Source: Spirochaetia bacterium
Lineage (GTDB): Bacteria > Spirochaetota > Spirochaetia > Sphaerochaetales > Sphaerochaetaceae
Reading direction: 5' to 3'
Assembly: GCA_022482625.1 (NCBI GenBank)
Contig: JAKVOU010000001.1
Location: 1,536,784 to 1,600,783, forward strand
DNA: 64,000 bases
Below, piece by piece: positions 49,957 to 63,057 of the stretch (its first letter is position 1; each line of letters begins with the position of its first letter). Under the pieces are notes generated by a model that did not search any database, was not told where the DNA came from, and saw nothing but the letters and a program-made list of their open reading frames with translations. A program made the position numbers and the translations under genes.

Positions 49957-50343
49957 TCATGCAATTTCAATTTCCCGCGGTTGTGCAACTTCTTTCTTGG
50001 CTATCAGTACAGTAAGCACACCTTTCGCCAGGCTTGCTTTGATGTTTTCTTCATCAGCATCATCCGGCAATACAAGGCTTCTTTCAAACATTACCTTCGG
50101 ATCTGCTTCCCTTAATACGGTCAGGCCATTGTCTGTAGGATTCTCAAACCTATCACTGGTTGCAAGCTCCAACTTATGGTCCTTGACTTGCATTGTGATC
50201 TCATCTGGTTTATAGCCCGGAAGCTCAACAGACAAACCGTAGCTGTCTTTGCCTTCCCATACATCCATCGGCGGAACCTTTGCTGTACAAGCATCAAAAT
50301 ATCCATCTCTTATCAGTGCATCTATATCTGTCAAGTAGTTCAT
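49957..50343 (-). CDS. Small heat-shock protein Hsp20 (first gene of the operon)
   Basis: A 128-residue alpha-crystallin-domain chaperone with YGLSVELPGYKPDEITMQVK, VMFERSLVLPDDADEENIKA, KGVLTVLIAKKE and C-terminal PREIEIA. Start at 50343 with GAGGAG upstream. It heads the three-gene operon and lies about 40 bases downstream of the predicted start of a sigma-54-like promoter at 50391-50410. Confidence 0.92.
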   Translation of the reverse strand: MNYLTDIDALIRDGYFDACTAKVPPMDVWEGKDSYGLSVELPGYKPDEITMQVKDHKLELATSDRFENPTDNGLTVLREADPKVMFERSLVLPDDADEENIKASLAKGVLTVLIAKKEVAQPREIEIA

Positions 50344-50390
50344 TCTTTTCTCCTCTACCATTTCTTTCCTGGTCTTTTGTCATAAACAAT

Positions 50391-50410
50391 ATTGCACATA
50401 CCATGCCAAC
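50391..50410 (-). promoter_or_regulatory. Sigma-54-type promoter of the hsp20 operon
   Basis: On the minus strand the sequence reads TTGGCATGGTATGTGCAAT. The invariant GG and GC are separated by exactly ten bases, as in RpoN (-24/-12) promoters (TTGGCAC-N5-TTGCA). Transcription would start near 50383, giving a 40-base leader to the ATG at 50343. A matching element precedes the other hsp20 gene. Confidence 0.65.
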
Positions 50411-50693
50411 TTTTTAAAACAGCAAAGAAGCAAACCTATATTACATTATTAGTTTGGAATATATTTATTTATATATAAAATAATTAAAAATTTTATCAAC
50501 TATGAATCAGAATTAATATTCCTAGTCAAAAGAAAGAAAAAATAATCTAAAAAAGACAATCAGATGGTTCCTTTTCAAAGAGAACAAGGGTCAATCCTGA
50601 CCCGTTGTAAAATCAAAGGCATCATATTGTGTCAAAATGACACGTATGAGTCTTCATTACCCTATACATGTGGAAATTTGGGACAGAAATACT
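50411..50693. other. A+T-rich intergenic region upstream of the hsp20 operon
   Basis: No gene was seen. An imperfect inverted repeat (CAAACC and GTTTG arms around 50430-50460) could be a binding site for an enhancer-binding activator of the sigma-54-type promoter, but it is weak. The part nearest 50694 is downstream of the methyltransferase gene. Confidence 0.3.
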
Positions 50694-51509
50694 TCAAATA
50701 GCTTTTGTCCAGTCGATCATTGCCATCTTGTTCGTACTTGGCAACAACAACTTGCCTGTAACCGGATCTTTTTCCAGATGCTTCTCAAGATACTTCCCGA
50801 TTATCGCATAGGAATCCTGACCTTCAGCCAACGGCCCAAGGTTGGACTTCACAGAAAGGATGGCTTGTCCAACAGAATCATAGACAGCAACGGATGTATG
50901 ATCAAAAATCTTGACATCGGCAAAAATTCCCATTTGATGAAGTATATTGACGATATAGATGTAGTCAGGATTGCTTCGATAGGGCTCGTTGCAAAGCAAT
51001 TCCCACAGATTACGAAGATGGGTCCTACGATTTGCAAAGCGAAACAGATATACATGTTTTTTTGCCAAACTATCCATCTTTTCCAATGCAGAATGCATAT
51101 CCGGCATTATAAGGCATTGGTAAGCCACGACAATATCATGAGGTATGACTACAGCATCTTCCCACAGGGCATTGACACTTGCAATATTGGTAATCCGTTC
51201 CGCTTTTGCGCGCTCTTGAAGGAAATCAAGCATCTGGTCTGCTGCGTCTAGTGCTGTTACAGACCGTGAAGTCTTTGCAAGCGGAATAGTCAGGGTTCCT
51301 GGCCCACATCCGATATCCAATATTGTGTCGGAAGCAGCATGGATAATCATTGATAGGATCTTTTCAATCGTCGGTTCTTCAAAACAAAGGGCATCCATGT
51401 AACCTTTGGCCCTTTTGTTCCAACATCCTGCGATATCAGTATCGTAACGGCGGACAGAGGCCTCCAGCATATCCTTTTCCCATTTTTTATTCCAATCAAT
51501 ATCCGTCAT
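50694..51509 (-). CDS. Class I SAM-dependent methyltransferase
   Basis: A 271-residue cytoplasmic methyltransferase. SAM motif I is ILDIGCGPGTLTIPLAK (near residues 65-81), followed by VTALDAADQMLDFL. The N-terminal DWNKKWEKDM and CWNKRAKGYM segments resemble methyltransferases found near metal or cofactor uptake genes, but no such neighbour is present. Start at 51509 was chosen over upstream options. It lies between two hsp20 loci on the same strand and is separated by a terminator from the upstream one. Confidence 0.82.
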   Translation of the reverse strand: MTDIDWNKKWEKDMLEASVRRYDTDIAGCWNKRAKGYMDALCFEEPTIEKILSMIIHAASDTILDIGCGPGTLTIPLAKTSRSVTALDAADQMLDFLQERAKAERITNIASVNALWEDAVVIPHDIVVAYQCLIMPDMHSALEKMDSLAKKHVYLFRFANRRTHLRNLWELLCNEPYRSNPDYIYIVNILHQMGIFADVKIFDHTSVAVYDSVGQAILSVKSNLGPLAEGQDSYAIIGKYLEKHLEKDPVTGKLLLPSTNKMAMIDWTKAI

Positions 51510-51566
51510 ACCAGAAATAGTCCTCCCTGTTTCTGGTACTTTACATATATCCTTACAACAAAACAA

Positions 51567-51592
51567 GGCCACTGCTTTCGCAGTGGCCGAGG
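51567..51592 (-). terminator. Terminator after the lone hsp20 gene
   Basis: GGCCACTGC (51567-51575) pairs fully with GCAGTGGCC (51580-51588) around a 4-base loop. On the minus strand it is followed by TTGTTTTG. It ends the hsp20 gene at 51629-52048. Confidence 0.8.
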
Positions 51593-51628
51593 GGTCAGTA
51601 CATTGTAATGTTATCTTCTATCGAAATC

Positions 51629-52048
51629 TCAATTACCTGCTTTCGTTACTTCAATCAGTTTCGGAGCTTTTGCCTTGGCTTCAGGCTTCTTAGGCAGTAC
51701 TATCTTCAGTACGCCATCATCAAGTTTTGCAGTGATACCGTCCTCATTGACATCTTCTCCCAAGGAAACAGATCTGCTAAAACTACGTCTGGTGCTTTCC
51801 TTGACCAGGTATTTCTTGGACTTATCTTCCTTTTCTTTCGATTGGTCGGAAGACACAGTGAGCAAGTGTTTATCCAATTTGATGGATACATCCTTTATAT
51901 TGACACCTGGCATTTCAAGTTCTACTTCATAGCCATCATTATTCTCTTTGATGTTCATCGGAGGGAATTTATCCTGAAAACCAGTAAAATTGTCCCATGC
52001 AGTATCCAATAACGTATCAAAATCTCTGTTCATCAAATAGTTCATCAT
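51629..52048 (-). CDS. Small heat-shock protein Hsp20 (separate fourth copy)
   Basis: A 139-residue alpha-crystallin-domain chaperone with YEVELEMPGVNIKDVSIKL, FSRSVSLGEDVNEDGITAKL, DGVLKIVLPKKPE and a C-terminal LIEV motif. Start at 52048 follows GGAGGT; the longer frame from 52102 is unlikely. It is transcribed alone, from a sigma-54-like promoter at 52107-52126, and is the most divergent of the four copies. Confidence 0.92.
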   Translation of the reverse strand: MMNYLMNRDFDTLLDTAWDNFTGFQDKFPPMNIKENNDGYEVELEMPGVNIKDVSIKLDKHLLTVSSDQSKEKEDKSKKYLVKESTRRSFSRSVSLGEDVNEDGITAKLDDGVLKIVLPKKPEAKAKAPKLIEVTKAGN

Positions 52049-52106
52049 AATTTCTACCTCCAACTCATTGATTTCTTTTATTGCCCTTTCGGGTTGCGAC
52101 AAACAT

Positions 52107-53041: not shown

Positions 53042-54046
53042 TTATTGTGGTGTGCTTTTTCTTACCACCATAGAACCACCGACTTTGATTTTGACACAAG
53101 CAGGTTGATCTCCTTCTATTTCGTCAAGAAGCATCATGGTGGCCATCTTGCCAATCAAAGTGCGATATACATGGAAAGTAGAAAGAGGCGGAGCAGCAGT
53201 CTGGGCCAAGTAAATATCATCAAATCCAAATACAGCGACATCCTCGGGAACTCTGATATCAAATTCCGCCATTGCTTTTACTGCCCCGATGGCAATTATA
53301 TCATTGTCAGAAAAAACCAACCGAGGCACTTTCGCACCGGACTCAAGGTAGGCCTTCATTTTCTGATAACTCAAAGAAATTGAAGGAACCAACATAAAAC
53401 GGTCGGTTGTCTCATCATAGGAAAGTCCAAAGTCTTCTATAGCCTTTTTGAGCCCCTGTCCACGTTCAATAAAATTCTGAGTAGTCAGTCCTCCGCAAAA
53501 ATAGCCAATTCTTTTTTCATTGGTCGATGCAAGATACTTTACAGCCTCATAAGCCATTTCTTCGTTATTCATTGTAATTGAATTACAGTCGAAATGGGAC
53601 ATAGAATTATCTATGACAACATATGGGACAGTAATGTGATCCAAGATAGAATAGTCAGCCACCTCAAGTTCTGTACCTAATACAAAGACTCCACAAAGTT
53701 TATGATACTCAACAGCAGCAAGTGCATGATCAAAATTTCCATGAACAACTTGTATCTGCAAAGAATATCCTTTGCCATTGCATTCCGCCTGAATCGAATC
53801 CATAATTTTTGCTATGAATCCTGCATTTTCATCTACAAGATATCCAGATTTTACCAGCTTGATAAAAAGCAAAGTTTTATTACCACTGCAACGAACTCTT
53901 CGTTTTTCCTTGTCAAAACCGATATCGTCCAGCAATGAAAGTATCTGGCGCCGTTTTTTTTCACCTACACCTGGTTTATCATTCAATACCAACGAAATAG
54001 TAGCAGGAGAAACTTTTGCAATTTTTGCAAGTTCACGTATAGTCAT
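53042..54046 (-). CDS. LacI-family regulator of the DhaK/DhaL sugar operon
   Basis: A 334-residue repressor: helix-turn-helix TIRELAKIAKVSPATISLVLN at the N-terminus and a periplasmic-binding-like sensor (CGVFVLGTELEVADY, RLVFSDNDIIAIGAVKA, VAVFGFDDIYLAQ). It is divergent from the transporter-kinase operon that starts at 54293. A perfect 15-bp palindrome at 54075-54089 lies just upstream of its own start, and a near-copy lies over the ribosome-binding site of the operon. Both suggest repression of itself and the operon until an inducer sugar binds. Confidence 0.9.
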   Translation of the reverse strand: MTIRELAKIAKVSPATISLVLNDKPGVGEKKRRQILSLLDDIGFDKEKRRVRCSGNKTLLFIKLVKSGYLVDENAGFIAKIMDSIQAECNGKGYSLQIQVVHGNFDHALAAVEYHKLCGVFVLGTELEVADYSILDHITVPYVVIDNSMSHFDCNSITMNNEEMAYEAVKYLASTNEKRIGYFCGGLTTQNFIERGQGLKKAIEDFGLSYDETTDRFMLVPSISLSYQKMKAYLESGAKVPRLVFSDNDIIAIGAVKAMAEFDIRVPEDVAVFGFDDIYLAQTAAPPLSTFHVYRTLIGKMATMMLLDEIEGDQPACVKIKVGGSMVVRKSTPQ

Positions 54047-54074
54047 TTTATATTGTTTCCTTTCATACTGGCAA

Positions 54075-54089
54075 TTGTTTACTAAACAA
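54075..54089. promoter_or_regulatory. Palindromic operator near the LacI gene start
   Basis: TTGTTTACTAAACAA is a perfect 15-bp palindrome with a central C, 29 bases upstream of the regulator's ATG. It has the size and symmetry of a LacI-family operator. Confidence 0.7.
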
Positions 54090-54201
54090 TAAACCTAGAC
54101 AAAAGTTTTGTCAATAAAATAAATATCAAAATAATACACATTAATCCAATAATATGTAAATTTATAAATATAAATAAAACTAAAAAAATGAAAACTTTTC
54201 A

Positions 54202-54231
54202 TTGACAGCTGAAAAAAACCAACTGTATACT
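54202..54231 (+). promoter_or_regulatory. Predicted promoter of the DhaK/DhaL sugar operon
   Basis: TTGACA (54202-54207) and TATACT (54226-54231) are 18 bases apart. The leader of about 55 bases contains the second operator copy. Confidence 0.6.
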
Positions 54232-54267
54232 AGTTCCTGATAACAAAACTAAACAAACAAAATATAA

Positions 54268-54282
54268 TTGTTTAGTAAACGG
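54268..54282. promoter_or_regulatory. Second LacI-type operator in the operon leader
   Basis: TTGTTTAGTAAAC followed by GG repeats the palindrome at 54075 with two changes at the end. It lies downstream of the promoter and abuts the GGAGG ribosome-binding site, so the repressor could block elongation or initiation. A half-site (ACTAAACAA) lies at 54248-54256. Confidence 0.65.
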
Positions 54283-54292
54283 AGGTATAAAA

Positions 54293-55318
54293 GTGAAGAA
54301 ATTATTGTCTATGATTCTTGCCATTTCATTGGCAGCAACTTCATTTGTAGTTGCAAATGGTACAAGTGAAAGCAACACTGCAGGAAGCACTTCTAGCAGT
54401 AAAAAGGATTATAAGATTGCTGTAGTACCTAAACTGACAAGCATCAGTTGGTTCCAGAGAATGGAAGTAGGTGTAAAGGAGTATGCAAAAGATACTGGCG
54501 TCGATGCATTTTATACAGGTCCCTCAGAGGGTGACGGTGCATTGCAAGCCCAAGTAATAGAAGATTTGATAAGCCAGGGCGTTGATGCTATCTGCGTTGT
54601 CCCTTTCTCGACCGAATCGCTTGAACCTGTCCTAAAGAAAGCAAGGGATGCAGGTATTGTCGTTATCACACAGGAAGCTTCAGGAATGAAAAACATTGAT
54701 TACGATGTAGAAGCCTTCGACAATGCTGCTTACGGAAGACATTTCATGGAAAAATTGGGTAAACTGACAGGAGGACAAGGTGATTATATCCTAGAAGTAG
54801 GTTCTTTGACTTCTGAATCACATAACCAATGGGTCGATGCAGCAAAAGCACTGCAATTGAAAGAATTCCCCGGCATGCATCAATATGGAGATAAAATTGA
54901 AACAGCTGACAATCTCAACAATTCATACAACAAGGTAAAGGAAGTTTTAACAGCTAATCCGAACTTGAAAGGCATTGAAGGGTCAGCTATGTCAGATATT
55001 GCAGGAGCTGCATTGGCAGTGGAAGAACTTGGTTTGTCTGGAAAAGTGTCTATTGTTGGAACTTCTCTTGTTTCAGTTTCTGGGAAATACATCAAAGATG
55101 GCACAATTGCAATGGCTTCTTTCTGGGATCCGGCAGTTGCTGGGAAAGCAATGATACAGCTGGCTCTGAAAGTATTGAACAAAGAACCAATCGAAAATGG
55201 TTGCAATTTGGATGTCGCTGGTTATGACAATCTCGAGCTAAATGGAAAAGTCCTTAGCGGTCAGGCATGGATTGATGTCACAAAAGATAATGTAGATGAT
55301 CCATCAATCAACTTTTAA
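54293..55318 (+). CDS. ABC transporter sugar-binding protein (CUT2/RbsB type)
   Basis: A 341-residue periplasmic binding protein of peripla_BP_4 type. It starts with GTG (54293) after GGAGG. The signal peptide ends TSFVVA, and the mature chain begins NGTSES without a lipobox cysteine. Features include YKIAVVPKLTSISWFQRMEVG, GVDAICVVPFSTESLEPVLKKA and IVGTSLVSVSGKYIKDG. It resembles binding proteins for small sugars or polyols. Two stem-loops follow it. It defines the first step of the locus, import of an unknown small sugar. Confidence 0.9.
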   Translation: MKKLLSMILAISLAATSFVVANGTSESNTAGSTSSSKKDYKIAVVPKLTSISWFQRMEVGVKEYAKDTGVDAFYTGPSEGDGALQAQVIEDLISQGVDAICVVPFSTESLEPVLKKARDAGIVVITQEASGMKNIDYDVEAFDNAAYGRHFMEKLGKLTGGQGDYILEVGSLTSESHNQWVDAAKALQLKEFPGMHQYGDKIETADNLNNSYNKVKEVLTANPNLKGIEGSAMSDIAGAALAVEELGLSGKVSIVGTSLVSVSGKYIKDGTIAMASFWDPAVAGKAMIQLALKVLNKEPIENGCNLDVAGYDNLELNGKVLSGQAWIDVTKDNVDDPSINF

Positions 55319-55319
55319 T

Positions 55320-55372
55320 CAATTTTAAACAACTAAAATTGTATTCAAGAGAAGTACAGACTACTTCTCTTG
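55320..55372 (+). promoter_or_regulatory. Two consecutive perfect stem-loops after the binding-protein gene
   Basis: CAATTTTA pairs with TAAAATTG (55320-55341). CAAGAGAAGTA pairs with TACTTCTCTTG (55346-55372) in an 11-bp perfect stem. No long T-run follows. They probably protect or attenuate the transcript between binding protein and ATPase genes. Confidence 0.7.
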
Positions 55373-55385
55373 GATACAGAGCTAC

Positions 55386-56909
55386 ATGGAGAAACAGCTG
55401 ATGCCACAGGAATTCATCCGTTTGGAAAACATAACTAAGACTTTCACAGGTGTACACGCTCTCAAAGGCGTAGATTTTTCCATTAACTATGGAGAAATCC
55501 ATTGTTTGGCAGGAGAAAACGGATGTGGTAAGTCTACCTTGATCAAAGTAATTTCCGGGGCTCATCATCCCTCAGGAGGTAAAATTTTCTTCGAGGGTAA
55601 GGAAATATCCAATCTTTCACCGATTGACTCGATTCATCTGGGTGTTCAAGTCATCTATCAGGATTTTGCAGTCTTTCCTAATCTAAGTGTTGCTGAAAAT
55701 ATTGCCATGAACAAAAATCTCATGGAAAATAAAAAGAAAATGGATTGGGACAAAGCCCGGGAACTTGCACTCGAAGGCATGGCAATGATAGGAGCTAAAA
55801 TTGATCCGGATGTCTGTGTTGAACGGCTTAGTGTATCAAACAAACAAATGGTTGCAATATGCAGGGCATTGGTCAATGATGCAAAATTGCTCATCCTGGA
55901 TGAACCGACCACAGCATTGACTGCCTGCGAAGTCGGAATGTTAAACGAGACACTTAGAAAACTCAAACAAAAAGGAATGGCAATAGTCATAGTCAACCAT
56001 AAGATTGACGAAATCTTTGATATTGCCGATAGGCTGACCATACTCAGGAATGGTGAAAATGTAGCAACAGGACTTATTAACGAATTTGATCGTAAACGTT
56101 TCATTTACTGTATGACAGGGAGAGAAATCAAAGATACTATCTATACTCCTGAACCAAGTGAGGAAATTGTATGTGAAGTTAATGACCTGAGTTTGAAAGA
56201 CCACTTCCAAAAACTCAGTTTTACTCTTGCAAAAGGTGATGTACTAGGAATTACCGGTTTGTTAGGATCAGGGCGGAGTGAAATAGGAGAATCATTGTTC
56301 GGCATTACACCTGCAACTACAGGTTCTGTTACAATCAGAGGTCGAAAGCAATATATACACTCAATAACCGATGCAGTCAAGCACAGAATCGGTTACGTCC
56401 CTGAAGATAGACTTACACAAGGTCTGTTTCTATCCAAATCCATCAGAGACAATACAATTGTCGCCTCTTTAAAGGAATACATGGAAAAAGGCAAACTTAA
56501 TCTAGAAAAAATGGATAAGGTTACCGCGGCATGGATTAAAAGAATCGGGTGTGTTGCTGCTTCTACAACAGTACCCATCAAAACACTATCAGGGGGCAAT
56601 GCTCAGAAAATGGTAATTGCTAAATGGCTGAACACCCATCCTCAATTGCTTATTTTGAATGGTCCCACTGTAGGTGTCGATATTGGTTCAAAATCCGATA
56701 TACATGCAATACTCCACAAACTGGCAAAGGATGGGATGGGCATTATCATTATTTCAGATGACCTGAGTGAACTCTACTATAATTGCAACAAGTTGATAAT
56801 CATGAGCAATGGCAAAAGTTCTGGCGTTCTCAACATGTGCGATTTCGATGAAAATGATATTACAACTCTGATTCGCCAAGCAGCATCAACGGAGAACACA
56901 GATGACTAG
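55386..56909 (+). CDS. Sugar ABC transporter ATPase (RbsA type, two nucleotide-binding domains)
   Basis: A 507-residue cytoplasmic ATPase with duplicated domains. Domain 1 has Walker A LAGENGCGKSTLIK, signature RLSVSNKQMVAICRAL and Walker B LLILDEPTTAL. Domain 2 has the degenerate P-loop GLLGSGRSEIGES and signature LSGGNAQKMVIAKWL. Its Walker B reads LLILNGPTVGVD, where both the Asp and the catalytic Glu of DEPT are replaced, so domain 2 probably cannot hydrolyse ATP. Start is 55386, or 55401, which has a better ribosome-binding site. It overlaps the first permease by eight bases. Confidence 0.92.
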   Translation: MEKQLMPQEFIRLENITKTFTGVHALKGVDFSINYGEIHCLAGENGCGKSTLIKVISGAHHPSGGKIFFEGKEISNLSPIDSIHLGVQVIYQDFAVFPNLSVAENIAMNKNLMENKKKMDWDKARELALEGMAMIGAKIDPDVCVERLSVSNKQMVAICRALVNDAKLLILDEPTTALTACEVGMLNETLRKLKQKGMAIVIVNHKIDEIFDIADRLTILRNGENVATGLINEFDRKRFIYCMTGREIKDTIYTPEPSEEIVCEVNDLSLKDHFQKLSFTLAKGDVLGITGLLGSGRSEIGESLFGITPATTGSVTIRGRKQYIHSITDAVKHRIGYVPEDRLTQGLFLSKSIRDNTIVASLKEYMEKGKLNLEKMDKVTAAWIKRIGCVAASTTVPIKTLSGGNAQKMVIAKWLNTHPQLLILNGPTVGVDIGSKSDIHAILHKLAKDGMGIIIISDDLSELYYNCNKLIIMSNGKSSGVLNMCDFDENDITTLIRQAASTENTDD

Positions 56910-57900
56910 TATACACAACAACAAACTGACAACAAATGAAGCTATCGTTACTTATACGATACTTATTCTCTGTACCTTGATTGGTATCGTAAATCCGGCA
57001 TTTCTCAGTTTTTCGACAATAATTACCCTCTCACGTGCAATGTTGATAACATTGATCTTTGCTGGCATTGAAATGCTGGTAATCATAAGTGGTGGCATTG
57101 ATGTTTCATTTCCTGCTATTGCCTGTTTTGCTTCTTATGCATCAATTAAACTGATACTCAAATATAATATTGATAGCATCCTTTTCTTCTATCTCTTTGC
57201 TTCTGTTTTGGGATTCGGCTTTGGATGTCTCAATGCCTTTCTTATTGCAAGGAGACATATGCCACCCCTGATTGCAACCCTTGGTGTCAGCAATATCGCA
57301 AACGGAGCAACATTGGCATTCCTAGGTACCAAAGAACTTTCTAACATCCCCACACATATAGACAGCCTTTCAAAGGCCTATCTTTTTTCCTTTACAAATA
57401 AAAGCCATATTACCTATGAAATGACTTCCCTGATATTAATTCCAATTATTTTCTTGGTAGTTTTGGCTTTTTTCCTCAAATTCACAACATTGGGCCGAGG
57501 AATCTATGCCATAGGAGGTGACAAAAACGCCGCAAGAATAGCGGGCTACAATGTAAAGAAGATACAATCCCTTGTCTATATCGCAGCGGGAGTGCTGGCA
57601 GCCGTCGGAGGTGTTACCTATACGATCCTCATGCGCCAGGCAAGTCCCCAGAACCTAATGGGATCAGAAATGATGGTCATCGCTGCTGTAGTTGTCGGTG
57701 GCACAAGGATTACAGGAGGCCATGGTACGGTTATCGGAAGTGTCTTGGGAGTCCTGTTGATTGCCATAGTCCAGAACAACCTGGTAATGGTCGGTGTACC
57801 GACACATTTCCAAACTTTTGTCGTCGGCCTGATAATTGTCTTGGGTACAAGCGTTACTTCAATTCGAGCAAAACATATTGCCAACAGTGCAAAGCTTTAG
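56902..57900 (+). CDS. Sugar ABC transporter permease (RbsC type), first
   Basis: A 332-residue inner-membrane permease with 8-10 hydrophobic helices. Family segments are VIISGGIDVSFPAIACFASY, FTTLGRGIYAIGGDKNAARIAG and GGTRITGGHGTVIGSVLGVLL. It overlaps the ATPase gene and is followed after 18 bases by a second, different permease, so the transporter probably uses a heterodimeric channel. Confidence 0.92.
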   Translation: MTSIHNNKLTTNEAIVTYTILILCTLIGIVNPAFLSFSTIITLSRAMLITLIFAGIEMLVIISGGIDVSFPAIACFASYASIKLILKYNIDSILFFYLFASVLGFGFGCLNAFLIARRHMPPLIATLGVSNIANGATLAFLGTKELSNIPTHIDSLSKAYLFSFTNKSHITYEMTSLILIPIIFLVVLAFFLKFTTLGRGIYAIGGDKNAARIAGYNVKKIQSLVYIAAGVLAAVGGVTYTILMRQASPQNLMGSEMMVIAAVVVGGTRITGGHGTVIGSVLGVLLIAIVQNNLVMVGVPTHFQTFVVGLIIVLGTSVTSIRAKHIANSAKL

Positions 57901-57918
57901 GAAAAGGAAGACAGTATC

Positions 57919-58878
57919 ATGAAATATGACAAGATAAACAAAAACAATGCGATGCTGCTGCTTCTGGGCATACTCATCTTTGTAATCATGGGCATACTCC
58001 AACCACGATCTTTTCTAAGATCAGCAAATATCAGAGGTATGTTCATTCAGTTGCCGGAATATGGCATCCTTTGTTATGGGATGATGTTGGCCATGATTTC
58101 AGGAGGGATTGATCTCTCTTTGGTCGGTATAGCTAATTTTGCCAGTATAGTCGGCGCAACCGTCATGATTGCCAATGGCAATACAAGTTTTTCCATCATG
58201 TTGGGTATTCTTGCCGCATTGGTCGTTGGCATCGGTTGTGGCTTGTTCAATGGATTTTTAATTGGTTACCTAAAGATTCCGGCAATGTTGGTAACACTTT
58301 GCGGTCTACAATTGTATCAAGGTCTTGGCCTTGCAATCACGAAGGGACCTGCATTAACAGGTCTTCCAAGCAACTTTGCCAAAATTGCAAATAATAATTT
58401 TTTGGGAATTCCTATCCCATTCTACGTATTCATCGTTTCAACGTTGGTTATTGCCTATTTGATGAAATCGACTGTATATGGACAACAAGTCAAATTCCTC
58501 GGAGCAAATGAAACAGCTTCACGATATTCAGGAATCAACAATTTGAAAGTTACGTTGCTAACATATATGTTCAGCGGTATCTTAGGTGCCGTAAGTGGTA
58601 TTTTGATTTCCTCCCATTACAATTCAGCAAAAAGCGATTATGGAAAGTCCTATACCTTACTTACCCTTCTTATTGTAGTGTTAGGTGGAACAAATCCTGA
58701 TGGCGGTGAGGGAAATATCCTAGGAGTAGCTTTGGCAGTTTTTGTCCTTCAACTAATTTCAAGTGCCTTCAATATCCTGCGAATCAATTCTTTCGTAAAA
58801 ACATTCGTCTTCGGTATAATCTTAATCGGCACTTTATTAGTTTCTGAATATCTTGATGAGAAAAAACAGAAGGAATAA
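57919..58878 (+). CDS. Sugar ABC transporter permease (RbsC type), second
   Basis: A 319-residue inner-membrane permease with the same fold as the first: AMISGGIDLSLVGIANFASI, TVYGQQVKFLGANETASRYSG and VVLGGTNPDGGEGNILGVALA. It differs clearly from the first permease, as in other two-permease CUT2 systems such as autoinducer or rhamnose type. A strong AAGGAG follows it for the cupin gene. Confidence 0.92.
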   Translation: MKYDKINKNNAMLLLLGILIFVIMGILQPRSFLRSANIRGMFIQLPEYGILCYGMMLAMISGGIDLSLVGIANFASIVGATVMIANGNTSFSIMLGILAALVVGIGCGLFNGFLIGYLKIPAMLVTLCGLQLYQGLGLAITKGPALTGLPSNFAKIANNNFLGIPIPFYVFIVSTLVIAYLMKSTVYGQQVKFLGANETASRYSGINNLKVTLLTYMFSGILGAVSGILISSHYNSAKSDYGKSYTLLTLLIVVLGGTNPDGGEGNILGVALAVFVLQLISSAFNILRINSFVKTFVFGIILIGTLLVSEYLDEKKQKE

Positions 58879-58887
58879 GGAGTAAAC

Positions 58888-59367
58888 ATGAAAAAGATAA
58901 AGGCAAAGAAACTTTCAGTGGAAGGATTCAGCAATTTCGGCAGCTATTACAATCTGATTGATGTACAAGGAAATAATTTAGGCGATTTTTTTCCTGACCA
59001 CATACTGAATCCGACTGAAGGAACTGTAACTGGTTTTTCTGCATTGAAAGTATATAAAAAAGAAAAAATGATTATTGAGGCAGTAGAATTCCATAACCAT
59101 ACAGGAGAAATCATATTGCCTCTTGACTCGGATATTGTCATTCATGTAGCACCGCCAAATATAAAACCAATACTTAATCAGACAGAGGCTTTTATTGTGC
59201 CAAAGGGTACTATAGTCAGACTCAATGTAGGTGTTTTCCATCTGGCACCTTTTTCGATTGAAAAAGAAACCGGACATGTAATGATTGCTTTGCCTGAAAG
59301 AACTTATATAAATGATTGTACTGTCATCACATATGACGAAAATTCAAAGATTGAAATCACATTGTAG
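58888..59367 (+). CDS. AllA-like cupin (ureidoglycolate-lyase fold) of unknown substrate
   Basis: A 159-residue cytoplasmic protein. The N-terminal KKLSVEGFSNFGSYYNLID, the central VEFHNHTGEIILPLDSDIVIHVAPP and VPKGTIVRLNVGVFHLAPFSIE resemble the beta-barrel of ureidoglycolate lyase (AllA) and related cupins. The His residues of HNHTGE and VFHLAPF could bind metal or substrate. It sits between transporter and kinase genes with AAGGAG upstream and no purine-breakdown genes nearby. It therefore probably acts on the imported sugar as isomerase, epimerase or lyase. That role is inferred from position only. Confidence 0.75.
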   Translation: MKKIKAKKLSVEGFSNFGSYYNLIDVQGNNLGDFFPDHILNPTEGTVTGFSALKVYKKEKMIIEAVEFHNHTGEIILPLDSDIVIHVAPPNIKPILNQTEAFIVPKGTIVRLNVGVFHLAPFSIEKETGHVMIALPERTYINDCTVITYDENSKIEITL

Positions 59368-59375
59368 GAGTAAGC

Positions 59376-60386
59376 ATGAAAAAAATCATCAATAAACCGG
59401 AAAATTATGTCAAAGAGATGCTTGAGGGCCTATACGTTGCTCATCCCGATCTCATTACTTATACAGCAGGGGACCTTCACTGTCTCGTAACTGCCAACAA
59501 AAAGGAAGGAAAAGTCGGTATAGCTACAGGCGGTGGTTCAGGGCATCTTCCCCTGTTCTTGGGCTATGTAGGCAAAGGTATGCTTGATGCATGTTCAGTG
59601 GGTGACGTATTTCAAAGTCCAAGTGCAGAGCAAATGCTTGCCTGTACAAAATATATCAACAGTGGTGCTGGGGTATTGTACATTTATGGAAATTATAACG
59701 GAGATATCTTCAACTTCGATATGGCAGCAGAACAAGCAGATTTTGAAGAAGACATACGAGTTGAATCCGTTGTCGCAGGTGATGATGTTGCTTCTGCAGC
59801 ACCCACGAAGCCAGGAGAAAAAAATACCAGAAGAGGTGTCGCTGGCATAGTCTTTGTCTATAAATGTGCCGGTGCTGCAGCTGATGCAATGCTGGATTTG
59901 GATGAAGTCAAACGTATAGCACTGAAGGCCTGTGCAAATGTACGGACCATGGGAGTTGCTCTTACACCATGTATTGTACCTAGAGTCGGCAAACCTGGTT
60001 TCTCCATTGCAGATGATGAAATGGAAATAGGTATGGGCATTCATGGTGAAACAGGTATCCGTCGTGGCAAACTGGAACCAGCAGATCAAATTGCAGAAGA
60101 AATGGTTGTCAAGATTCTGGCCGATATACCATTCTCCCAAGGAGATGAAGTTGCAGTCATGGTCAATGGCCTTGGCGCTACCCCGCTTGACGAACAATAC
60201 ATAATCGTCCGGAAGGTAGATGAATTACTCAAGAAAGCAGGTCTGAAAATACATAGATATTATGTAGGAGAATATGCCACGTCTTTGGAAATGGCCGGGA
60301 TTTCCATCAGTCTATTAAAACTGGATGAAGAATTGAAAAAATATCTTGATGCGCCAGCCCAGACACCTTTCTTTGTACAGCTTTAG
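59376..60386 (+). CDS. dhaK: DhaK-type dihydroxyacetone/ketose kinase, substrate-binding subunit
   Basis: A 336-residue DhaK. The substrate forms a covalent hemiaminal with a conserved His, seen here as His223 in MGIHGETGIRRG. GGGSGHLPLFLGYVGKGM carries the second His. Other family motifs are YGNYNGDIFNFDMAAEQA, SVVAGDDVASA and RRGVAGIVFVYKCAGAAAD. The usual GSGHEP is GSGHLP here, a Glu-to-Leu change near the substrate. With the adjacent DhaL it should phosphorylate dihydroxyacetone or a related ketose such as erythrulose. No DhaM gene is present, so ATP is the likely donor through DhaL. Confidence 0.9.
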   Translation: MKKIINKPENYVKEMLEGLYVAHPDLITYTAGDLHCLVTANKKEGKVGIATGGGSGHLPLFLGYVGKGMLDACSVGDVFQSPSAEQMLACTKYINSGAGVLYIYGNYNGDIFNFDMAAEQADFEEDIRVESVVAGDDVASAAPTKPGEKNTRRGVAGIVFVYKCAGAAADAMLDLDEVKRIALKACANVRTMGVALTPCIVPRVGKPGFSIADDEMEIGMGIHGETGIRRGKLEPADQIAEEMVVKILADIPFSQGDEVAVMVNGLGATPLDEQYIIVRKVDELLKKAGLKIHRYYVGEYATSLEMAGISISLLKLDEELKKYLDAPAQTPFFVQL

Positions 60387-60396
60387 GAGAACAGAT

Positions 60397-61014
60397 ATGG
60401 ATGCAACACTGATAAAGAACTTCCTGAATACGACAGCAAAAGTAATGATGGAGGAAAAAGACCATCTGATTGAAGCTGACAGTATTGTCGGAGACGGGGA
60501 CCTAGGCCTGACAATGAGTGATGGATTCACAGCAGCTTCAGATGCCATTAAAGAAAATCCCATTCAAGATTGTGGCAAACTCCTTTATACCGCAGGCAAA
60601 GCCATGAGTACAGCAGTTCCATCAACAATGGGTACGTTGATGGCTTCCGGCCTCATGTCAGCGGGCAAAACGCTCAAAGGTAAAACTGAGCTGACCAGAG
60701 AAGATATCCTGTCACTTTTCGATGCATTTTTATCTGGGGTAATCCACCTTGGCAAGGCAAAACAGGGTGAGAAAACCTTCATAGATGGGTTTGCGCCAGG
60801 TTGTGATGCATTGCATGCAACAGCCGATGTACAACTGAAAGAAAGCGCAAAAGCAGCTGCAGATGCATCAATGAAAGGATATCTGGGAACAAAAGGAATG
60901 CTGGCAATTCATGGGCGTGCAGCAACCAGAGGAGAAGCTTCCAGAGCATTGTTGGATCCTGGTGCCTATGTAGGAGCTCTGCTGTTCAAGGGTTTTTATC
61001 TATCGCTAGAATGA
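60397..61014 (+). CDS. dhaL: DhaL-type nucleotide-binding subunit of the ketose kinase
   Basis: A 205-residue DhaL that binds ADP/ATP with magnesium. The metal-binding aspartates lie in EADSIVGDGDLGLTMSDGF (Asp28, Asp33, Asp35). The usual GDGDHG is GDGDLG here. Other family segments are VPSTMGTLMASGLMSAGK and GRAATRGEASRALLDPGA. Start at 60397 with TAGGAGA upstream; the longer frame is unlikely. It is the last gene of the operon, followed by a terminator at 61065-61107. Confidence 0.9.
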   Translation: MDATLIKNFLNTTAKVMMEEKDHLIEADSIVGDGDLGLTMSDGFTAASDAIKENPIQDCGKLLYTAGKAMSTAVPSTMGTLMASGLMSAGKTLKGKTELTREDILSLFDAFLSGVIHLGKAKQGEKTFIDGFAPGCDALHATADVQLKESAKAAADASMKGYLGTKGMLAIHGRAATRGEASRALLDPGAYVGALLFKGFYLSLE

Positions 61015-61170: not shown

Positions 61171-63057
61171 TCAAAGGTATTGATGGGAAGTCATGATAAG
61201 ACCAAGACCCGGCGTAACTTCCCAATCTGTAAACAGATCCTTGTACGTCCCTACCAAGCAATCTGTGTAGACCCTTTCATCAGCATCACTGAAACTGGCA
61301 AAACACAGCAGTTCATGCCCTTGGAAAGTCCTTCTGACAAGCAGGACCTTGTCATTATGACAGTCCAACGTAGATACCTGCGCCTCAGTTAGGAAGCATA
61401 AATTGCTACATCTCATTCGCATCAAATCAGACAATCTTTCAAAAGGTTTCTGCTGATAAGTTTCTTTTTTATGTCTTAATTCAGCCTTTTCCCAATCAAA
61501 ATGGCTCCTATGGATATTCCTGCTGTCATCGCACCGCAAAGGATCGTCCCTATATGACCAGTCGTTAAGTTGCCCGATTTCATCTCGGAAACCTTTGTGG
61601 AATACATTGCGCTGTGAAGCATAAGATTGCGTTGAATGCTTTCGCCGGTCAGAGCGGCATCATGCAACCAGACTCCTTTCTCAATGCCACATAAGCTTGG
61701 CAGCCGTACCACAGGTCCTCGCATCCTGTGAAACAGGATCATAGTTTTACAGTGCACCCAATGCATAGCCATAAGGAAATTCTCCTTCAAAAAAATGATA
61801 GACGAACTTCTTATGTTCAAGGGGATCAATACCGAATTCACGCTGTATGTTATCATCCATTGCCCAGCCAATATCATCATGACAGCGTAGGTAATAATTT
61901 ACAAAATCACAGTGAGGTAGCAAACTGTCAATTGCGTTGAGCTGCCGTACCAAGAACCGAACATCCTGACTGGCAAGGGAATCCCAAAAGTTCGCCATGG
62001 TAGCAGCATTATAAAGAAGATGGCACTCAGGGTGTCCGGGAGTACCGAAATAAGCCTGCAACTCATTCGGAGCCATAACGACTTCACCTTTCAGGATCGT
62101 AGCAGGACAGACACTCTCCATCAGCAGACGTATCATCCGTATCAGCATATGCGCTTCAGGTAAATTCCTGCATTTTGCCCAGAGTTTTTCCATATATAAG
62201 GAACGGAATCCAATCGAAAAATCTCACAACCCCAATTTGCAAGATACAGCATACTGCATACAATTTCATTGGAAAAAGAGGGATTCGCATAGTCAAGGTC
62301 CTATTGGAACGGATAAAACGAAGTAAGGACCCACTGATTGATCTCATCACACCAAGTAAAATTACCAGGAGCTGTAGAGGGAAACACCTGAAGAACCATC
62401 GCATCATAGACATCGGGTATGGTCCTGTCCGGGAAAAAGTGTAAAAACCCATTGCCTTGCGGTTTCCTTTTTTTGCAGCCATAGCCCAAGGATGTGTACT
62501 TGCCATATGATTCATGACAAAATCCATGCAAAGGGAAATCCCGTTTTCACGCAATGCGGCTGTAAGATCGGCCAAGTCAGATACAGTTCCAAAACACGGG
62601 TCAATGGATTTGAAATCATCCACCGCATAGCCACCGTCGTTGTCAGGATGCGGCATCCTGAGCATAGGCATAAGATGCAAATAAGTGATACAAAGTTTCT
62701 TCAGATAAGGAATTTTTTCCCTGAGCCCTGCAAGGTCGCCTGCAAACAAATCTGTATACAAGGTAAGACCGGGCATTTTTGGATCAAGATACCATAACGG
62801 AGCAGCAAGCCGTTGCCGGTCAAGGGCCCGACGCTCCCCAGATATGCTTGCCTGGCTATTGACTTCAGCTCCTGGAACTTTGCCTCATCAGGGTATAGTC
62901 CCATATAAAGCGCATCAAGCTCCGGCTCTTTTTTGGCAATTTCTGCACAAACTCCATATTCTGCTCCTATCGAAGGCAACTGTATCCTCACACAATGATA
63001 CAGCCCCCCCCCGACAATGATGATTCCAGGTATCAGGAACTGCGTCAAGAAAAACAA
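61171..63057 (-). pseudogene. Amylosucrase-like GH13 gene, broken by several frameshifts
   Basis: The fragments, read in order on the minus strand, give a nearly full-length amylosucrase-like protein (about 630 residues). They are an N-terminal helical part (ARQAYLG), then PGLTLYTDLFAGDLAGLREK, DGGYAVDDFKSIDPCFGT and CMDFVMNHMASTHPWA. These are followed in other frames by FPSTAPGNFTWCDEIN, EIFRLDSVPYIW, YLRCHDDIGWAMDD, RDEIGQLNDWSYRDDP and CDDSRNIHRSHFDWEKAE. At least four frame changes are needed, between about 62840 and 61540. Amylosucrases make glucan from sucrose or hydrolyse it. The gene is probably non-functional. A run of nine C's lies near its start. Confidence 0.8.

Follow-up and report, generated by a model that had tools for sequence, protein, structure and literature searches.

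What sugar does an operon take up in which a transporter is joined to a small cupin and to a kinase resembling dihydroxyacetone (DHA) kinase, and what would the cupin do for it? The question is raised by eight genes at positions 53042-61014 of a 64,000-nucleotide stretch from a Spirochaetia bacterium (GCA_022482625.1, contig JAKVOU010000001.1), referred to as a whole as the window. An earlier note on this DNA had described these genes as an apparently complete, LacI-controlled uptake-and-kinase pathway, with a tetrulose as a possible substrate. Our analysis upholds a sugar uptake-and-kinase operon under LacI, but neither the completeness of the pathway nor the tetrulose. We propose instead that a ring-forming sugar is imported, opened by the cupin and phosphorylated in its open-chain form, a scheme that we regard as evenly balanced between right and wrong.

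Gene content and proposed scheme

A check of the open reading frames showed that all eight genes are present, intact and closely packed, in the order described: the LacI gene on the reverse strand, followed on the forward strand at 54293-61014 by the genes for a binding protein, a double ATPase, two permeases, an AllA-fold cupin, DhaK and DhaL. For DhaL, the ATG at 60397 is a more likely start than the TTG at 60346 of the mechanical list of open reading frames.

53042..54046, reverse strand: LacI-family repressor, divergent from the operon (Pfam LacI 1.5e-7, Peripla_BP_3 2.6e-23)
54293..55318, forward strand: CUT2-type sugar-binding protein, 341 aa, GTG start (Peripla_BP_4 8e-61)
55386..56909, forward strand: double-domain ABC ATPase, 507 aa (two ABC_tran stretches)
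56902..57900, forward strand: permease 1, 332 aa (BPD_transp_2 1.7e-34)
57919..58878, forward strand: permease 2, 319 aa (BPD_transp_2 2.8e-32)
58888..59367, forward strand: AllA/DUF4867-family cupin, 159 aa (Ureidogly_lyase 1e-7, DUF4867 2e-7)
59376..60386, forward strand: DhaK-like substrate-binding kinase subunit, 336 aa (Dak1 5e-122)
60397..61014, forward strand: DhaL-like nucleotide-binding kinase subunit (Dak2 3.1e-36)

The Peripla_BP_4 binding protein, the double ATPase and the BPD_transp_2 permeases identify a CUT2 sugar transporter, and the family matches, which lie well above threshold, confirm the gene content given by the earlier note. Its statement that a dehydrogenase and DhaM are missing was also borne out: no dehydrogenase gene lies within the operon, and no DhaM was found, the EIIA-Man domain (PF03610) having no match across the whole genome. 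A complete pathway is not established, since the operon holds no isomerase, aldolase or other enzyme leading the product into central metabolism.

In the proposed scheme, LacI would keep the operon repressed as long as neither the sugar nor a derivative is available, and the CUT2 ABC transporter would take up a free small sugar, most of which arrives in ring form. This ring would be opened or mutarotated by the metal-dependent AllA-family cupin, and the open-chain carbonyl form would be bound covalently by DhaK as a hemiaminal on H223. ATP bound to DhaL would then phosphorylate the open-chain sugar without DhaM and so trap it, and enzymes encoded elsewhere would pass the phosphate into central metabolism. 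The parts of this scheme differ in strength: uptake and phosphorylation of a small sugar are highly probable, our judgement on ring opening by the cupin is about equally divided, and to a substrate of four or five carbons we give roughly half of our belief. The identities of transporter, kinase and regulator, the absence of DhaM, the conservation of the operon and the link between cupin and transporter are all supported by the sequences. The order transporter, mutarotase, kinase has parallels in the systems for ribose with RbsD, rhamnose with RhaU and fucose with FucU.

Conservation of the operon and its link to the cupin

To assess conservation, 84,980 species genomes were scanned for the cupin, and Spirochaetota and Bacillota were sampled independently by way of DhaK; many of the loci compared (numbered with the prefix L) derive from metagenome assemblies. 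This comparison of gene neighbourhoods, which the earlier note had proposed, revealed the same seven genes in 15 or more loci, which belong to spirochaetes, clostridia and a single candidate-phylum bacterium; such recurrence shows that the genes are not neighbours by chance. The cupin gene precedes that of DhaK in the window and in L033 (a Clostridium metagenome-assembled genome), L034 (Treponema sp. Marseille-Q4130), L035, L038, L161, L162, L031 and L092, and follows that of DhaL in L027, L163, L164, L101 (UASB270), L181 and L182. As the gene order changes while the partners stay together, a functional link among them is indicated. Cupins of the conserved operons are down to 27% identical to the window cupin, and those tested all belong to PF04115. 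No description of this cluster was found in the literature covered, which apparently did not include the main papers on the routes for tetruloses and apiose.

The association of the cupin with its neighbours was examined in 40 loci fetched by DhaK similarity alone, some of them on contigs that end near DhaK. An AllA-family cupin is present in 6 of the 8 loci with this transporter's binding protein and in none of the 32 others (Fisher p 7e-6, uncorrected for relatedness), which ties the cupin to the imported sugar and not to the kinase. The remaining DhaK loci have different neighbours: DapA-type aldolases together with tripartite tricarboxylate transporters, aldolases of class II, a fructose-6-phosphate aldolase, DhaM or transporters of another kind. 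The aldolases among the cupin-free neighbours of related DhaKs (DapA family, HpaI family, class II and fructose-6-phosphate aldolase) would likely release an open-chain substrate inside the cell. Absence of the cupin where the substrate arrives open-chain is what a ring opener predicts, and it is compatible with an isomerase as well.

In four loci (L168, L169, L186, L187) DhaKL stands beside tripartite tricarboxylate transporters, in most cases together with a DapA-family aldolase; in this separate and uncharted role, DhaK-type kinases probably serve sugar-acid breakdown.

The cupin as a candidate ring opener

The AllA-like nature of the cupin, recognized in the earlier note, is supported by a PF04115 score of 32.2 bits (gathering threshold 23) and by its AlphaFold2 model (mean pLDDT, the predicted local distance difference test, 93), which matches best the AllA proteins 2BDR (TM score 0.82) and 1XSQ, followed by SqvB (9GYY). 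The likeness to the ureidoglycolate lyase AllA (PF04115; 2BDR, 1XSQ) extends to the fold (TM 0.8 to the model) and the Pfam family. However, the two are only 18-22% identical, the score with the NCBIfam AllA equivalog is 22.6 bits against a cut-off of 230, and no allantoin genes were found in the neighbourhood of the cupin. Residues 62-142 also give a partial match to PF16161 (DUF4867) at 31.2 bits, above the gathering threshold of 28.7.

The earlier note had regarded the cupin step as foreign to described pathways, but DUF4867 proteins (SqvB and SftX) are already part of sulfoglycolysis clusters, where they have been proposed to open sugar rings (PMC9594981, PMC11968277). SqvB/SftX (PF16161; PDB 9GYY), the closest relatives so far described, and the window cupin have in common the AllA-type fold, a place beside sugar-processing genes, a suspected role in ring opening and the same four metal-ligand positions (PMC9594981, PMC11968277). 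The predicted ligands E67, H69, E74 and H118, invariant in 25 relatives, correspond to E97, H99, E103 and H150 of SqvB, although E74 lies one position further on than E103 and was matched to it by pattern. The phmmer match would set H118 opposite the SqvB histidine, provided that the SqvB chain carries a 20-residue tag. Unlike SqvB/SftX, to which it is 16% identical in structural alignment, the window cupin is shorter and belongs to another pathway; sulfoglycolysis itself was rejected, as no such genes are present in the operon beside it.

In an alternative that we consider rather unlikely, the cupin would be an aldose-ketose isomerase, so that an aldose is imported, a ketose made, and the ketose phosphorylated by DhaKL. 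The operon holds no other isomerase, kinases of the DhaK family act on ketones, and other metal cupins are isomerases; the cupin sugar isomerases 3kmh and 3mpb are among the weaker structural matches of the model. Yet these matches (TM 0.50, root-mean-square deviation 16) are far weaker than those to AllA and DUF4867. Cupins of the same clade elsewhere adjoin xylulokinase, transketolase and a fucose-isomerase-like protein (L068), arabinofuranosidases (L052), ribulokinase (L040) or an FGGY kinase (L047), and the dedicated fucose-isomerase-like enzymes beside the cupin in L068 and L050 suggest that the cupin is not the isomerase.

A search for the cupin in plasmids gave one weak match only. The genome of the window itself encodes a second, longer DUF4867-like cupin (L029, 9479-11613; G000:C1, about 2129500-2131600) beside a fucose-isomerase-like gene and a LacI-type regulator, possibly another sugar or sulfosugar locus.

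The kinase differs from DHA kinases

DhaK and DhaL belong to the same families as their counterparts in E. coli DhaKLM, and the window DhaK keeps H57, D110 and H223, equivalent to E. coli His56, Asp109 and His218, whose roles we take to be established. Beside these residues it departs from the E. coli enzyme: E57 is replaced by L58 and K104 by G105. Its motifs GGGSGH-L-P and Y-GNYxGD accordingly differ from GGGSGH-E-P and KNYxGD of the DHA kinases linked to DhaM or GldA. GHEP with KNYxGD is found in all DhaKs next to DhaM or GldA, among them all nine that are linked to DhaM and share 51-56% identity with the window DhaK, while all DhaKs of cupin operons have GHLP with YGNYxGD. These differences bear out the earlier view that this DhaK is unlike the kinases of free DHA, and the score with the NCBIfam equivalog TIGR02363 stays below the cut-off (390.9 against 406.25 bits).

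In the DhaK tree, the DhaKs of cupin operons fall into a group of 14 rows (95/93), apart from E. coli DhaK and from the GldA-linked and RpiB-linked DhaKs. The group alone does not define the substrate, because DhaKs of other contexts fall inside it, namely those with a phosphotransferase system (PTS) plus aldolase on enterobacterial plasmids and those of other CUT2 operons. As the genome lacks DhaM, DhaKL would probably use ATP directly, and a PTS-dependent DHA kinase (DhaKLM) was rejected for want of an EIIA-Man domain in the genome.

That the kinase acts on DHA or glyceraldehyde, imported free or as a cyclic dimer or conjugate broken by the cupin, appears unlikely. Such a route to triose phosphate would explain why transporter, cupin and kinase suffice with no further enzyme, and related DhaKs (55-65% identity) adjoin aldolases, including the fructose-6-phosphate aldolase of L173 (250.9 bits; curated cut-off 214). 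It is at odds with the two deviations from the DHA-kinase signature beside catalytic residues, at which the DhaM- or GldA-linked DhaKs of similar identity are conserved, and with a binding protein from a pentose-type family. Moreover, we know of no natural source of a cyclic DHA or glyceraldehyde dimer, which also counts against it. For the DHA conjugate named in the earlier note, the data speak neither way.

We consider it decidedly improbable that the locus resembles the tetrulose or apiose operons of Mycobacterium and Rhizobium and that its DhaKL phosphorylates erythrulose or apulose. As in the window, the operons of LerK, DerK and AplK for erythrulose and apulose/apionate presumably combine a DhaK-type kinase with a CUT2 transporter, but we take them to carry RpiB, LerI-like or transketolase genes as well. 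In L035 the operon is followed by RpiB and a ribokinase-like gene, and the window DhaK is 47% identical to the R. etli DhaK of the locus encoding the 3-oxo-isoapionate-4-phosphate decarboxylase OiaX, with which it shares the motif YGNYxGD. However, RpiB (DerI-like), the TIM-barrel LerI-like protein and transketolase are absent from the window operon and from most of its relatives, the window DhaK lies outside the RpiB- and OiaX-linked branches of the tree, and another DhaKL set of this genome, with RpiB, fits better. On these grounds the tetrulose of the earlier note is not established.

This second set (L030, G000:C1:2540000-2556000) comprises an HpaI-family aldolase, tripartite tricarboxylate transporter genes, a fucose-isomerase-C-like protein and an RpiB related, below the cut-off, to D-erythrulose-4-phosphate isomerase. 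On Klebsiella and Citrobacter plasmids (L069, L107), some of them conjugative and one IncN, a DhaK 65% identical to that of the window occurs with galactitol-type PTS genes, a class II aldolase, DhaL, an HPr protein and a second DhaKL pair.

The binding protein and its ligand pocket

With 5BRA the binding protein shares 50% identity, and it is about equally similar to those of alphaproteobacterial operons with a ribokinase-like kinase, aldose 1-epimerase and DeoC, which we read as deoxyribose operons. Apart from other DhaKL-linked transporters, these are the nearest members of the transporter family (47-50%), and they arrange transporter, mutarotase-like enzyme and kinase in the same way: a 5BRA-type binding protein, ATPase and two permeases are followed by an aldose 1-epimerase or a DUF4432 protein directly after the permeases. 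The window operon differs in having DhaKL for ribokinase and DeoC, the cupin for the epimerase, and H177 and S231-A232 for Q and (A/G)-P.

The pocket signature of the window protein is K47, E128, S176-H177 and S231-A232. At positions equivalent to contacts of LsrB with autoinducer 2 (AI-2), (S/T)-H and S-A are present in all 18 DhaKL-linked binding proteins, S-Q and (A/G)-P in all eight of the deoxyribose type, and D-Q and P-D in LsrB. The signature is not simply a matter of shared recent ancestry, since the DhaKL-linked binding proteins form no single branch in the tree. By their sequences, the DhaKL-linked transporters may thus share one conserved ligand that is neither deoxyribose nor AI-2. 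Deoxyribose was rejected because the pocket differs and DeoC and ribokinase are absent from the operon, although the deoxyribose transporters remain the nearest kin.

An Lsr-like operon for uptake and phosphorylation of AI-2, to which two unlike permeases, a distant LsrB match (27%) and the public naming of relatives as autoinducer 2 binding proteins might point, is hardly credible and was rejected on the contact residues, as one of six is kept (K35) while D116, D166, Q167, P220 and A222 are replaced by E, S, H, S and M, and as the operon lacks LsrK, LsrF and LsrG. The same public name on deoxyribose-type binding proteins (L070-L072, L201-L204) looks wrong, as these keep two of the six contacts and are adjoined by deoC.

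LacI control

Relatives of the window LacI (46-51% identity) occupy the same position in L035, L161 and L162. Three candidate control elements lie between the LacI and binding-protein genes.

54074..54090, no strand assigned: operator-like perfect 17-base palindrome ATTGTTTACTAAACAAT, containing a copy of TTGTTTA(C/G)TAAAC at 54075-54089
54202..54231, forward strand: candidate sigma-70-type promoter TTGACA-18-TATACT, 11/12, by consensus match only
54268..54280, no strand assigned: second operator-like site TTGTTTAGTAAAC, a match to TTGTTTA(C/G)TAAAC just upstream of the binding-protein gene

The motif TTGTTTA(C/G)TAAAC occurs at these two places and nowhere else in the 64 kb window, where 0.2 matches with at most one mismatch are expected by chance. 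Paired TTTANTAAA cores are likewise found between the LacI and binding-protein genes in L035 and L031. The pair of operator-like sites supports the LacI control assumed in the earlier note, although the genomes are AT-rich.

Weighing the ring-opening scheme

Several observations weigh against ring opening by the cupin. L183 and L185 hold this transporter and DhaKL but no cupin, and many cupins of the clade lie away from sugar genes (L036, L037, L039, L063, L065). In L031, L035, L038 and L092 the operon is accompanied by a ribokinase-like gene, a second kinase outside the scheme. As tetruloses and apulose cannot form stable rings, import of one of them would leave a ring opener with nothing to do. 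A published test exists for just one DUF4867 relative, SftX, which did not speed up the mutarotation of sulfoquinovose or sulfofructose, the metals used being non-paramagnetic only (PMC11968277).

The recurring ribokinase-like gene and the RpiB of L035, the sole RpiB case among the cupin-operon loci, hint at pentose chemistry, though both lie outside the window operon. We also considered a scheme with two kinases, in which DhaKL would act on one end of the sugar and a ribokinase-like, FGGY or PTS enzyme on the other, yielding a bisphosphate for an aldolase. It draws on the recurrence of a second kinase in L031, L035, L038, L092, L105 and the enterobacterial plasmids, and is not needed in the window. 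In L027, L163, L164 and L184, an FGGY kinase with BtpA-family and peptidase-like proteins stands beside DhaKL operons, recalling the E. coli sgc cluster; the peptidase-like protein is M42 in L184 and L185.

More tentatively, and with the balance of our judgement against it, the small AllA/DUF4867 cupins may be metal-dependent sugar ring openers of a third class beside GalM and RbsD/FucU, here feeding a DhaK-type kinase that can bind only open-chain carbonyls. Spirochaetes, clostridia and proteobacteria would then have in common a kinase pathway with one conserved ligand. Little is charted of DhaK-type kinases outside glycerol metabolism, and although structures of DUF4867/AllA cupins from sugar pathways exist, no activity has been proven for them. 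With one transporter, one cupin and one kinase, the compact operon would allow kinase and cupin to be studied with a single substrate; a practical handle on it is the binding protein's pocket signature, and the result would extend to the operons of all three bacterial groups.

Neighbouring genes

Downstream of the operon, at 61171-63057 on the reverse strand, a GH13-type glucosidase gene is seemingly split over several frames: 62159-62776 and 61750-62193 match GH13 models in different frames, reflecting either decay or assembly errors. On the other side, at 49957-52102 on the reverse strand, a methyltransferase-like gene lies between two Hsp20-family small heat-shock genes.

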